DNA of 64,000 bases. Source: Allofranklinella schreckenbergeri. Lineage in GTDB: Bacteria > Pseudomonadota > Gammaproteobacteria > Burkholderiales > Burkholderiaceae_C. The stretch spans positions 1 to 64,000 of the forward strand of contig NZ_RDQM01000013.1 in the NCBI RefSeq assembly GCF_003703475.1, read 5' to 3'. A program made the position numbers and the translations under genes. The notes under the pieces are model-generated. The model was not told the origin of the DNA, made no database searches, and saw only the letters and a list, made by a program, of their open reading frames with translations. Shown here in pieces: positions 36,744 through 41,458 of this stretch (position 1 is its first letter; each line of letters begins with the position of its first letter).

Positions 36744-37829
36744 ATGCATTACTGGAGTGATGGCCTGGAGCAGTTAGAGCCTTACGTGCCGGGCGAGCAG
36801 CCCCGTGTGGCGGGCCTCATCAAACTCAACACCAACGAAAACCCCTATGGCCCGGCCCCTGAGGCGGTGCAGGCCATGGCGCAGGTGGCCCAGCAGGGCT
36901 TGCAGCTTTACCCTGACCCTGCTTCGCAGGCGTTGTGCGAGGCCGTTGCGCGCCACCATGCGAAGCAGGGCATTGACAGTGCGCAAGTGTTTGCGGGCAA
37001 TGGCTCGGACGAAGTGCTGGCCCATGCCTTCCGCGCCTTCTTCGTGCGCGCTGGCCGTTCCCTGCTCATGCCCGACATCAGCTACAGCTTTTACGAGGTC
37101 TATGCCCGCCTGTTTGGCATCCCCGCCCGGCAGGTGCCGCTGCGCGCAGACTGGCGCATTGGCGTGGAGGATTACCTGGCCGTCGATCCCGCCCAATGTG
37201 CGGGCGTGGTCATCGCCAACCCCAACGCGCCCACGGGCATGGCGCTGTCGCTGGCGGACATCGAGCGCTTGCTGGAGCACTTCACGCAGCAAGTGGTGCT
37301 GATCGACGAAGCCTATGTGGATTTCGGCGCCGAATCGGCCCTGGCGCTGGTGCAGCGCTATCCCCAGCTTCTGGTGGTGCACACCCTCTCCAAATCCCGC
37401 GCGCTGGCAGGCCTGCGCGTGGGGCTGGCGTTTGGGCAAGCCGGGCTGATCGACGGCTTGCGCCGCGTCAAGGACAGTTTCAACTCCTACCCCCTGGGCC
37501 GTCTGGCGCAAGCCGGGGCGCAGGCTGCCTACGAGCACCACGCCTATTACGAGCGCACCATCGGCCAAGTCGTGGCCAGCCGCGAGGCGCTGGCGCAAGC
37601 GCTGCAACAGCGGGGGTTTGAGGTGCTGCCCTCCAAAGCCAACTTCCTGTTCGTGCGCCATCCGCAGCATGCCGGGGCCGACTTGCACGCCCAATTGCGC
37701 GAGCGCCGCGTGCTGGTGCGCCACTTTCGCAAGCCGCGCCTGCAAGACTTTTTGCGCATCACCATTGGCACGCCGCAACAGTGCCAGGCCCTGCTGCATG
37801 CGCTGGACGCCTGCTTGCAGCAGAGCTGA
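36744..37829 (+). CDS. hisC: Histidinol-phosphate aminotransferase
   Basis: A 361-residue PLP enzyme of aminotransferase fold type I. It converts imidazole-acetol phosphate to histidinol phosphate in histidine synthesis. Features are IKLNTNENPYGPAPEAVQAM at the N-terminus, the phosphate-binding FAGNGSDEVLAHAFRAF, VVIANPNAPTGMAL, IDEAYVDFGAESAL, and the Schiff-base lysine in VVHTLSKSRALAGLRVGLAFG. Aromatic amino-acid transamination is a known side activity of the family. No other his genes are nearby. It is chosen from the internal ATG MHYWSDG. Confidence 0.92.
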   Translation: MHYWSDGLEQLEPYVPGEQPRVAGLIKLNTNENPYGPAPEAVQAMAQVAQQGLQLYPDPASQALCEAVARHHAKQGIDSAQVFAGNGSDEVLAHAFRAFFVRAGRSLLMPDISYSFYEVYARLFGIPARQVPLRADWRIGVEDYLAVDPAQCAGVVIANPNAPTGMALSLADIERLLEHFTQQVVLIDEAYVDFGAESALALVQRYPQLLVVHTLSKSRALAGLRVGLAFGQAGLIDGLRRVKDSFNSYPLGRLAQAGAQAAYEHHAYYERTIGQVVASREALAQALQQRGFEVLPSKANFLFVRHPQHAGADLHAQLRERRVLVRHFRKPRLQDFLRITIGTPQQCQALLHALDACLQQS

Positions 37830-37924
37830 GCCAGTAGCGCGGCTTGGAAATGGAATTAATCTCACGCGCAACCAAACCGCATCTGTGGGGGCTTGCGCGC
37901 CAGCGCTTGGGTTTGAGGGGCGAG

Positions 37925-37955
37925 CTGGCCGACAATGGCGGCCGTTTCTTTTTCG
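37925..37955 (+). terminator. Candidate terminator after hisC
   Basis: A short GC stem GGCCG / CGGCC with a 7-nt loop is followed by GTTTCTTTTT. It lies about 100 bp after the hisC stop and just before a repeat element. The stem is short, so strength is uncertain. Confidence 0.45.
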
Positions 37956-37968
37956 GGGCTGTAAAATT

Positions 37969-38042
37969 TTACCAATCAAAGGAAATGAAACAATGCTGTT
38001 TCGGCATGATGTGATTGATGTATATTTTCCTTTGATTGGTTG
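37969..38042 (+). repeat. Dispersed palindromic repeat, copy 9 (best terminal repeats)
   Basis: Perfect 15-bp inverted termini ACCAATCAAAGGAAA (37971-37985) and TTTCCTTTGATTGGT (38026-38040) flank the core GTTTCGGCATGATGTGATT. It ends about 45 bp before the bacterioferritin start. Confidence 0.9.
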
Positions 38043-38086
38043 ATTTGCTTGATGTTTTGCCGCCCCATGACCAATGCGAGAACCCC

Positions 38087-38575
38087 ATGAACGCTGAACC
38101 CCAAGTCATGCACCATTTGCAGGCCCCGCTCAAACTCCTGCTGACCCACATCAACCAGACCTTTGTGCATTACCGCATGCTCAAGCATTGGGGGCTGGAT
38201 GTGCTGGGCAAGGCCGAATACAAAGCCTCCATCAAGGCGATGAAGGAGTGCGACGATTTGATGGAGCGGATTTTTCTCCTCGATGGCCTGCCCAATTTGC
38301 AAGATCTGGGCAAGCTGCGCATTGGCGAGGATGTGCCGGAAATTCTCGAATGCGATTTGGCCCTGGAGCAAGAGCTGCAAACCACGCTCAAGGCGGGCGT
38401 GGCGCATTGCGAGAGCGTGCACGATTTCGTCTCGCGCGAGCTGCTCGAGGGTTTGCTCGATGAGGCCGAGGAGCGCATCGATTTTCTGGAAACCCAATTG
38501 GGCTTGATCGAGCAAATGGGCCTGCAAAACTACCAGCAGGCGCAAATGAGCGAAATGGGCGAATCAGGCCATTGA
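38087..38575 (+). CDS. bfr: Bacterioferritin lacking most ferroxidase ligands
   Basis: A 162-residue bacterioferritin that aligns without gaps to E. coli Bfr numbering (GLPNLQDLGKLRIGEDV, ESVHDFVSREL, FLETQLGLIEQMGLQNY). The haem ligand M52 is kept. Of the six di-iron ligands, five are lost: E18 is L, E51 is A, H54 is E, E127 is A, H130 is R; only E94 remains. Y25 is T, and the inner-site residues E47 and D50 are A and K. It should bind haem at the subunit interface but not oxidise iron by itself. It may co-assemble with a normal Bfr encoded elsewhere. Inverted repeats flank it. Confidence 0.93.
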   Translation: MNAEPQVMHHLQAPLKLLLTHINQTFVHYRMLKHWGLDVLGKAEYKASIKAMKECDDLMERIFLLDGLPNLQDLGKLRIGEDVPEILECDLALEQELQTTLKAGVAHCESVHDFVSRELLEGLLDEAEERIDFLETQLGLIEQMGLQNYQQAQMSEMGESGH

Positions 38576-38670
38576 CTTGGGCCATTGATTTGGGGCATTG
38601 ATAGCCCACGCCATGCGGCCAGGCCAGCCAGGCGCGGCGGTTTGCGCAGCCCGCGCGCCTGGTTTTCATT

Positions 38671-38745
38671 TTCCACATAAGGAAAATTTGCTTTATGCAT
38701 GTCATGCCGAAAAATGGCATTTTTATTGCCTATTGAATGGTAAAA
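38671..38745 (-). repeat. Dispersed palindromic repeat, copy 10
   Basis: The minus-strand core is TTTTCGGCATGACATGCAT. Arms TTTCCACATAAGGAAAA and TTGCCTATTGAATGGTAAAA are diverged. It lies about 95 bp after bfr, opposite in orientation to copy 9. Confidence 0.75.
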
Positions 38746-38815
38746 AAGGGGCGATCCAGCGCTCTGGGGTTACACTCTCGCCCTTTTTGCTGTCCAGCCC
38801 TGCGCTTGCCCCGCC

Positions 38816-41458
38816 ATGATCGACTCTGCCGCCGCCCCTACGCCGCTGCCCGCCTTGCCTGCTTTGCGCGCGCATTACCAGCAGCAGAAAAAAGCCATCG
38901 TCGATAGCCTGCTCCAACCCGGGCGCCCGCGCAGGCGCATCCAGTCACTGCTGCGCCTGCTGGCCGAGCACACCGACAAACTGCTGCGCCAGCTCTGGCA
39001 GCAGGCCGATTTGCCGGGCGATTTGGCGCTGCTGGCGGTGGGCGGTTATGGGCGCAATGGCTTGTTCCCCGCTTCGGATGTGGACGTGATGCTGTTGCTG
39101 CCAGCCGGGCACCGCATCGATGAAGGCAGCGTGCTGCAAGCGCAGATTGAGCAGTTCGTCAGCAGTTGCTGGGATGTGGGGCTGGAGATCGGCTTCAGCG
39201 TGCGCACGCAGCCTGAGGCGCTGGCGATGGCGCAAAGCGACATCACGGTGCAAACCACCATGCTGGAATCGCGCTGGGTCGCTGGCGACAAGGCGTTGGC
39301 CGAGTCGTTTGCCGGGCACTTTCGCCGCAGCCTGGATGGGCTGGCCTTCTTCCGCGCCAAGATGCTGGAGATGCGCCAGCGCCACGCCAAATACGAGCAC
39401 ACGCCCTATGCGCTGGAGCCTAACTGCAAAGAATCGCCCGGTGGCCTGCGCGATTTGCACATCATCATGTGGATGGCGCGCGCGGCGGGGCTGGGCAGCA
39501 GTTGGGATGCGCTGGCCGCTAGCGGCGTGGCCACGGCGCTGGAGGCGCGCCGACTGGCCGCGTGCGAGGCCGAGCTAAGCCTGATCCGCGCGCGCTTGCA
39601 TGCCGTCTCGGGCCGCCATGAGGACCGGCTCATCTTTGATTTGCAAACGGCGGTGGCCCAGCTGTTTGGCTTTCAGACGGGCAAAGGCATGCGCGCCAGC
39701 GAGCGACTGATGCGCCAGTACTACTGGTGCGCCAAGGCGGTGACGCAGCTCAATCAGATTTTGCTGCTCAATATCGAGGAGCGCCTGGACCCGCACGCCG
39801 GGCAGATGCGGCCCATCAATGCGCGGTTTTTCGACAAGGGCGGAATGATCGAAGTGGCGCAGGACGATTTGTACGAGCGCCAGCCCCATGCGATTTTGGA
39901 AACCTTCTTGCTCTACCAAAGCCAGCCCAGCCTGAAGGATCTCTCCGCGCGCACCCTGCGCGCGCTCTACAACTCACGCCATGTGATGGACAGCGCTTTT
40001 CGCCACGACAGCGCCAATCGCCGCATGTTCATGCAAATTCTCCAGCAGCCCGAGGGCATCACCCACGCGCTGCGGCTGATGAACCGCACCTCCGTGCTGG
40101 GGCGGTATTTGTGGGATTTCCGGCGCATCGTGGGGCAGATGCAGCACGACTTGTTCCACGTTTACACCGTCGATCAGCACATCCTCATGGTGGTGCGCAA
40201 CATGCGGCGCTTCTTCATCGCCGAGCACGCGCACGAATACCCCTACTGCTCCACATTGGCGGCAGGCTGGGACAAGCCCTGGATCCTGTACCTGGCCGCC
40301 TTGCTGCACGACATCGGCAAAGGGCGCGGGGGCGATCACTCCGAAATCGGTGCGCGCATTGCCAAGCGCTTTTGCCAATCCCACGGCGTGGCCCGCGCCG
40401 ATGCCGATTTGGTGATCTTTCTGGTGCGCCAGCATTTGCTCATGAGCCAAGTGGCGCAAAAGCAGGATTTGAGCGATCCGGATGTGATCGCCGCCTTTGC
40501 GCAAAAAGTGGGCAGCGAGCGCTATCTCACCGCGCTGTACCTGCTCACCGTGGCCGACATCCGTGGCACCAGCCCCAAAGTCTGGAATGCCTGGAAAGGC
40601 AAGCTGCTCGAAGACCTGTACCGCGCCACTGCACGTTTGCTCGGTGGCAGCCAGCCCGATCCGCAAGCGCAGACGGAAATGCACAAAAGTCAGGCCCGCG
40701 CCCTGCTGCAACACGACGCCGCGTGCGAAGGCCAGCCTTGGCAGGCCTGCCTGCAAGCCTTCTGGCAACGGCTGAATTCGGGCTACTTCATGCGTCACAG
40801 CGCCGATGAGCTGGCCTGGCATGCGCGCCATCTGGCGGCGCTGCCCCCGCCCAGTGCGCAGGCGCCGCACCCGCCCATTGTGCTGGCGCGCCAATCGGCG
40901 CTGGGCGAGGGGTTGCAAGTGGCGATTTACGCCTCCGACCGTGCCGACCTGTTTGCCCGCATCGTCAGCTATTTCGATCAGGCCGAATACGAAATTCTGG
41001 ATGCGCGCATTCACACCACCAGCGATGGCTACGCGCTGGATACCTTCCAGGTGGCGCTGCAATACACCGACGATGCACAGGCACAGGCCCGATCTGTGGA
41101 GCGCGACTTGGCGCAGGCCTTGCAAGGCCCGGCGTTGTGCCAGCCGCTGCCCCAACCGCGCGCGCGCCGGGTTTCGCGTCGGGCGCGGCATTTCCCCGTG
41201 CCCGTGCGCATTCGGCTGGAGCCAGACGACAAGGCCGAGCACTGGCTGCTGTCGGTGTCGGCGGCCGATCGCCTGGGCCTGCTGTACGACATCGCCTGGA
41301 CTTTGGCCCAGCACCGGCTCAGCGTGCATCTGGCCAAAATCGCCACGCTGGGCGAGCGCGCGGAAGACAGCTTTCTGATCCAGGGCGAGCTGCTGCGCAG
41401 CCTGAATGGCCAGCGCTTGCTGGAGCAGCAATTGAGCCAGCGCTGCCAGGCGGCTTGA
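38816..41458 (+). CDS. glnD: [Protein-PII] uridylyltransferase / uridylyl-removing enzyme
   Basis: An 880-residue bifunctional nitrogen sensor. It uridylylates PII when nitrogen is scarce and deuridylylates it when glutamine is high. The nucleotidyltransferase motif LLAVGGYGRNGLFPASDVDVMLLLP is at about 72-97. The family usually has GRGEL here, so the RGE to RNG change is slightly unusual. The HD hydrolase domain contains AALLHDIGKGRGGDHSEIGA. Two C-terminal ACT domains start near VAIYASDRADLFARIVSYFDQ and LSVSAADRLGLLYDIAWTLAQH and bind glutamine. It is transcribed alone. No PII gene is nearby. Confidence 0.96.
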   Translation: MIDSAAAPTPLPALPALRAHYQQQKKAIVDSLLQPGRPRRRIQSLLRLLAEHTDKLLRQLWQQADLPGDLALLAVGGYGRNGLFPASDVDVMLLLPAGHRIDEGSVLQAQIEQFVSSCWDVGLEIGFSVRTQPEALAMAQSDITVQTTMLESRWVAGDKALAESFAGHFRRSLDGLAFFRAKMLEMRQRHAKYEHTPYALEPNCKESPGGLRDLHIIMWMARAAGLGSSWDALAASGVATALEARRLAACEAELSLIRARLHAVSGRHEDRLIFDLQTAVAQLFGFQTGKGMRASERLMRQYYWCAKAVTQLNQILLLNIEERLDPHAGQMRPINARFFDKGGMIEVAQDDLYERQPHAILETFLLYQSQPSLKDLSARTLRALYNSRHVMDSAFRHDSANRRMFMQILQQPEGITHALRLMNRTSVLGRYLWDFRRIVGQMQHDLFHVYTVDQHILMVVRNMRRFFIAEHAHEYPYCSTLAAGWDKPWILYLAALLHDIGKGRGGDHSEIGARIAKRFCQSHGVARADADLVIFLVRQHLLMSQVAQKQDLSDPDVIAAFAQKVGSERYLTALYLLTVADIRGTSPKVWNAWKGKLLEDLYRATARLLGGSQPDPQAQTEMHKSQARALLQHDAACEGQPWQACLQAFWQRLNSGYFMRHSADELAWHARHLAALPPPSAQAPHPPIVLARQSALGEGLQVAIYASDRADLFARIVSYFDQAEYEILDARIHTTSDGYALDTFQVALQYTDDAQAQARSVERDLAQALQGPALCQPLPQPRARRVSRRARHFPVPVRIRLEPDDKAEHWLLSVSAADRLGLLYDIAWTLAQHRLSVHLAKIATLGERAEDSFLIQGELLRSLNGQRLLEQQLSQRCQAA

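Follow-up and report, generated by a model that had tools for sequence, protein, structure and literature searches.

What remains for a bacterioferritin to do when it has lost nearly all of the residues of its ferroxidase site, and has kept the methionine that holds the heme? The question is raised by a gene on a contig of Allofranklinella schreckenbergeri, of which we analysed a stretch of 64,000 nucleotides, here called the window. The answer we favour, and to which we give a probability of roughly nine in ten, is that the product (beta, of the BfrB type) belongs to a heteropolymeric 24-mer bacterioferritin as its heme subunit, without catalytic activity of its own, and would assemble there together with an FtnA-like subunit (alpha) as in published relatives. 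Genomes are referred to by working numbers where they have to be told apart, and the window's own genome is G000. The gene and its neighbours are the following.

36744-37829, plus strand: hisC-like aminotransferase, directly upstream of bfr (PF00155)
38087-38575, plus strand: bfr, putative heme-binding bacterioferritin subunit (beta / BfrB type), 162 aa (translation, alignment to E. coli Bfr, TIGR00754, PF00210, AlphaFold2)
38816-41458, plus strand: glnD, the next gene downstream of bfr (PF08335, 143.1 bits)

The reading frame of bfr starts with an ATG at 38087 and stops with a TGA at 38573-38575. An upstream TTG start at 38036, which would give 179 aa, was discarded because the aligned homologues of the genus start at the position of the ATG. 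In the alignment to E. coli Bfr, whose numbering is used here, beta has L18, T25, K46, A47, K50, A51, M52, E54, E94, A127 and R130. The changes are thus E18L, Y25T, E47A, D50K, E51A, H54E, E127A and H130R, together with the replacement of H46 by Lys, and M52 and E94 are retained. The intrasubunit di-iron site consists of E18, E51, H54, E94, E127 and H130, and as E94 is the only one of these six that remains, we have not filed beta as a catalytic Bfr. It nevertheless passes the NCBIfam profile TIGR00754 ('bfr') with 200.4 bits, the curated cut-off being 125.55, and matches PF00210 in Pfam. Judged from its residues, the product is a bacterioferritin without a ferroxidase site of its own, in which Met52 is retained. 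An earlier sequence-only reading had claimed that five of the six ferroxidase ligands are replaced, and that the haem ligand is conserved in a sequence that otherwise is that of a bacterioferritin; the alignment reproduces its list of substitutions exactly, and M52 and the profile score agree with the rest. The AlphaFold2 model, for which the input was 28 aligned window and locus sequences, has the five-helix Bfr fold with a mean pLDDT of 91.9, and its TM-scores by query length are 0.90-0.94 against the 50 chains listed, among them 9bts_A, 9iig_M and 9h1u_A. The best solved relative by sequence is the Achromobacter Bfr 5zur, which is 58-59% identical in the fold search and has Thr at position 127 in the printed alignment.

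A protein of this kind calls for a partner, and the same reading had predicted that beta serves electron transfer and teams up with a second, normal ferritin, for which the genome should be searched. A PF00210 profile search of G000 (30 contigs, completeness 99.34%) gave three matches, which are bfr itself, a Dps-like protein (L002) and a subunit without Met52 on contig C26, which lends support to the predicted teaming.

Contig C26, 204387-204851: alpha, FtnA-like subunit without Met52 (L001/L065), with a full di-iron site

Alpha has E18, Y25, E51, T52, H54, E94, E127 and H130, and hence all six di-iron ligands. Its best matches in the PDB are 9bxp and 3r2h (219 bits), and then 9bts_a (192 bits), which is labelled Ferritin (Ftn); 3r2h is FtnA of P. 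aeruginosa (PMC12120770), and 9bts is the A. baumannii complex. A homo-bacterioferritin, that is a self-sufficient cage with its own ferroxidase, does not describe beta, whose site residues are gone and whose genome also holds a second subunit with an intact di-iron site and no Met52. The genus survey found alpha in 10 of 10 genomes and beta in 9 of 10, the genome without beta being only 80% complete; some matches bear the names Vandammella animalimorsus, Lampropedia and Corticibacter, and by their positions they coincide with genomes of this same-genus group. The genes for alpha and beta are unlinked in the window's genome, where they lie on different contigs, and 4.5 kb apart in G006, a genome of the same genus. 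Read by eye, the open reading frames of G006 show the same kind of aminotransferase in front of beta, and no iron-related clue among the genes between alpha and beta.

The genome also has a Bfd-like ferredoxin, which adjoins a tonB on contig C2 (PF04324, 34.1 bits). The two subunits differ at the positions for heme and for Bfd docking: position 52 is Met in all nine genus beta sequences and Thr in 29 of 29 alpha, and position 68 is Leu in all nine beta and Lys or Arg in 22 of 29 alpha. We take positions 71, 77 and 85 to be docking sites as well, and L68, L71, L77, E81 and E85 are invariant in 9/9 genus beta. E85 is retained in 18 of the 29 alpha sequences, so that, counted by residue, alpha has lost the docking site only in part. 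Published work names L68 and E81 as Bfd-docking residues (PMC12261321, PMC13136788), and the BfrB variants E85A and L68A/E81A appear as PDB titles in the fold search. The heme subunit with its docking residues and the gene for Bfd are hence found in the same genome.

Whether a heme subunit with a damaged site is always accompanied by an intact partner was surveyed in two sets of genomes. A heme subunit counted as eroded when at least one of E18, E51, H54, E94 and H130 was changed, and a partner as absent when the searches of these genomes gave no match. The family and genus set comprised 107 genomes, G099 with its two partial hits being left out, and 105 of these have a heme subunit with Met52 (G005 and G057 are without one). 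A Met52-less subunit is present in 12/12 eroded genomes versus 18/93 of the others (n=105), and the Fisher p of 4e-8, for which kinship is ignored, overstates the case because erosion has few origins. The class-wide draw consisted of 204 genomes, 96 of them with a match, and 77 were classified when fragments, weak Dps-like hits and G000 and G138, whose sequences were already in use, had been excluded; G152 is one of these 77 and is counted in the family set too. In all 15 eroded genomes of the class set there is a second subunit that is intact at E18, E51, H54, E94 and H130, in 13 cases without Met52 and in 2 with it, and a Met52-less subunit occurs in 10 of the 62 non-eroded genomes. Alpha was sought in 50 of 80 named loci. 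Pseudacidovorax, eroded by E51A and H130Q, has six records, five with a full-length alpha and the sixth with a match of 46 aa. An eroded heme subunit without a site-intact partner was not found among the classified genomes of either survey.

The trees, which were built with the site columns masked, show how few events this pattern stands for. Erosion requires three changes on the family tree and four on the class tree, and many forks are poorly resolved. A single clade of the class tree (SH-aLRT 95) contains 18 of the 23 eroded rows, including all 15 cases of the class survey, and the window's genus, G104 and Pseudacidovorax sit outside it. The independent-pairs test, which corrects for phylogeny, was not significant on the family and class trees, where the events are too few; its family-tree version omitted six rows of the same order for which the partner state was not established. 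The rule that an eroded subunit needs a partner holds without exception in these surveys, yet only about four origins are behind it. Near neighbours in which alpha is present and beta is still intact are G013, G144 and G166 (supports 90-93, below the tool's star).

Some of the pairs have features of their own. In the tandem pairs of G262 (L365) and G388 (L348), Met52 is also present in the alpha-like subunit with the intact ferroxidase site, in contrast to the heme-free alpha of other pairs. The heme subunits of G236 (L333) and G280 (L395), in tandem with an intact-site partner, have all six di-iron ligands replaced, and their erosion is more complete than that of the window's beta. G040 (L085, L162, L165) seemingly has two hetero-Bfr systems, one a dispersed intact heme subunit with an alpha and the other a tandem pair whose heme subunit is eroded.

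The proposed arrangement is already known, since a division of labour has been published for heteropolymeric bacterioferritins (PMC6529640, PMC12120770, PMC13136788). The A. baumannii complex (PDB 9BTS) combines a full-site Ftn with a Bfr that binds heme, docks Bfd and most likely is without a working site; this Bfr is credited with binding Bfd and mobilising iron, and keeps three of the six ligands, compared to one of six in the window's beta (PMC13136788). Ferroxidase activity in M. gryphiswaldense is located in Bfr1 and heme binding goes via Bfr2, and cells are protected only by the Bfr1/Bfr2 hetero-oligomer, but there the bfr genes form one putative operon, whereas they are dispersed in the window's genome, and for Bfr2 the paper mentions E18Q, H54A and H131M among the ligands (PMC6529640). 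SoBfr12 of S. oneidensis (PDB 9IIG) is described as a 24-mer of 12 + 12 subunits, with heme-free ferroxidase homodimers and heme homodimers, in which M52L slows iron release, and oxidation too (PMC12120770). Its heme subunit SoBfr2 differs from beta in that most ligands are kept, the named changes being V94 and D51, along with K46, and its genes are in tandem and not dispersed, although the same paper recognises a class with dispersed genes (PMC12120770). P. aeruginosa offers a likeness to both subunits, with PaFtnA (3r2h) matched by alpha as given above and BfrB chains 52-54% identical to beta in the fold search, but BfrB retains all six ligands (PMC13136788). The comparison with human L-chain ferritin, drawn in two of these papers (PMC6529640, PMC12120770), concerns a mixed cage with functionally divided chains and is an analogy only, as no heme is involved. 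The ligand loss in the window's beta, with one of six left, appears to exceed what is named for the characterised systems compared here, and by title and abstract we recognised no work on site-less heme subunits of Comamonadaceae among the open-licence papers searched.

It is also conceivable that beta forms a heme-rich homo-24-mer of its own, or dimers, for heme storage or electron transfer, and that alpha forms a separate homo-24-mer. The unlinked genes in the window's genome would suit such a separation, and in M. gryphiswaldense the greater part of Bfr2, the dead subunit there, was found to form an oligomer by itself (PMC6529640). However, erosion was in both surveys observed only alongside an intact-site partner, the known subunits with an impaired site are found in mixed cages (9bts, 9iig), and in a Shewanella double mutant either gene alone gave no iron-stained band whereas co-expression gave one (PMC12120770), so separate cages strike us as improbable.

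How much the missing ligands say about the chemistry of beta depends on what is normal in the family. Position 127 is Thr in all 77 heme-subunit entries from family genomes without a detected partner, and nearly all of these have Gly (53) or Glu (22) at position 50; of 219 distinct intact heme sequences, 155 have Thr at position 127 and 64 have Glu there. The departures from E127 and D50 alone are no proof of a lost site, because the family usually differs from E. coli there, and from the uniform T127 it follows that, of the five ligand losses, four are specific to the window's lineage. E127 was probably lost before that lineage arose, and the losses that the alignments assign to the lineage itself are E18, E51, H54 and H130, plus Y25 and E47. 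A working di-iron site may, given the Thr in 77 of 77 entries, manage without the bridging Glu127. If so, the full ligand set of E. coli may be dispensable, and one could imagine that the site of beta binds metal in another way, e.g. by E54, E94 and E128/E129, for some oxidation or as a structural metal, with the retained E94 and the new E54 in its favour. R130 and K50, however, put positive charge in or beside the site, Y25 and E47 are lost as well, and position 54 is Gln rather than Glu in 6 of the 9 genus genomes, and we think it quite improbable that a metal is held there.

The substitutions recur in relatives, where the sequence-only reading had suggested that one should look. Of the nine genus genomes with beta, eight share L18, T25, K46, A47, K50, A51 and R130. 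The remaining genome, G003, is intermediate, as it combines E18, Y25 and T127 with A47, H50, A51, Y54 and R130. The dN/dS of beta among the three closest genomes (G006, G008 and G009), computed with a Nei-Gojobori script, is 0.025, 0.029 and 0.114, and beta is therefore under strong purifying selection. A pseudogene or sequencing noise is ruled out by these low values and by the replacements common to 8/9 genomes. The dimer interface has drifted at two positions, with E60 changed to Ala in 6/9 and K33 to Gln in 7/9 genus beta, and the dimer-face residues R30 and D56 are unchanged in all nine. That beta is a decaying paralogue, in which the ferroxidase residues drifted once selection had ceased, could be argued from the stepwise loss seen in G003 and from the drift at positions 33 and 60, but is barely credible in view of the dN/dS values, the seven identical replacements in eight genomes and the constancy of M52 and of the five docking residues.

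In the mixed 24-mer that we prefer, alpha, with its intact di-iron site, would oxidise Fe2+ there and supply the mineral, and homodimers of beta would hold heme between two Met52 residues. Bfd would dock on the outer face of beta, and electrons would pass from Bfd via the heme of beta to the Fe3+ core, which leads to iron release. The mixed 24-mer, its homodimer building blocks, the heme occupancy and the flow of electrons are all inferred from the published relatives. Opposite charges, most plausibly the pair E94-R130 together with E54 and K50, would fill the emptied site of beta. Human L-ferritin reportedly has a salt bridge of this kind, and a similar bridge is plausible here from the pairing of residues.

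The bfr gene is flanked on both sides, in opposite orientation, by copies of an inverted repeat of about 75-80 bp, with arms ACCAATCAAAGGAAA and a conserved core near TGTTTCGGCATGAT.

37966-38045, no strand: copy of the inverted-repeat element, ends 41 bp before the bfr start codon (genome-wide repeat)
38679-38760, no strand: second copy, reversed, downstream of bfr (nhmmer E 2.3e-13)

Besides these two there are 12 more copies in the window (14 in all), and at least 40 matches in the genome; the arm has 85 matches at no more than one mismatch, versus 0 for the reversed control. The copy at bfr folds well as RNA (z -4.28), but an Rfam scan of 37700-38900 gave no match above the gathering score, and a match of the repeat to mir-7552, with 28 bits versus a gathering score of 59, was taken as chance. 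We set aside a regulatory role of the copy upstream of bfr because the element is scattered throughout the genome. The repeat is present in the close relative G005 and was not found in the other same-genus loci examined, about 106 kb without overlaps, and it looks like a lineage-specific REP/MITE-like family.

Positions 46 and 50 belong to an inner-surface iron site in E. coli Bfr (PMC4691338), and of positions 50 and 51 only the latter enters into our definition of erosion. Of the 34 eroded heme sequences, 18 have Lys or Arg at position 50, as against none of the 219 intact ones, and 30 have Ala at position 51. Eight of the 18 are from the window's genus and 10 from the tandem-gene clade, which the tree sets apart, and the 18 thus amount to about two origins. 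The pattern is possibly new; a literature search on K/R50 in heterooligomeric Bfr found nothing relevant, and prior publication is still possible. A rather doubtful idea is that the dead iron site has not been left drifting but has been rebuilt into a basic patch, with K/R50, often K46, and A51. Against it, E94 is often lost in the tandem clade, 14 of the 219 intact sequences have K46 as well, and E50 is present in G104 and Pseudacidovorax in spite of their erosion. If true, such a patch might keep phosphate or mineral close to the heme, and beta would be a dedicated reduction port facing the core.

A match to TIGR00754 can thus be non-catalytic although it is annotated as bacterioferritin, which is a warning for annotation. 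If beta is the heme half of a mixed cage, the split between storage and release of iron would have been taken nearly to its end point in a lineage of Comamonadaceae with dispersed genes, and on the trees this erosion arose apart from that of the tandem-gene type. The intermediate G003 and the neighbours G013, G144 and G166 with an intact beta form a set in which it may be asked what a heme subunit needs once oxidation has been delegated.
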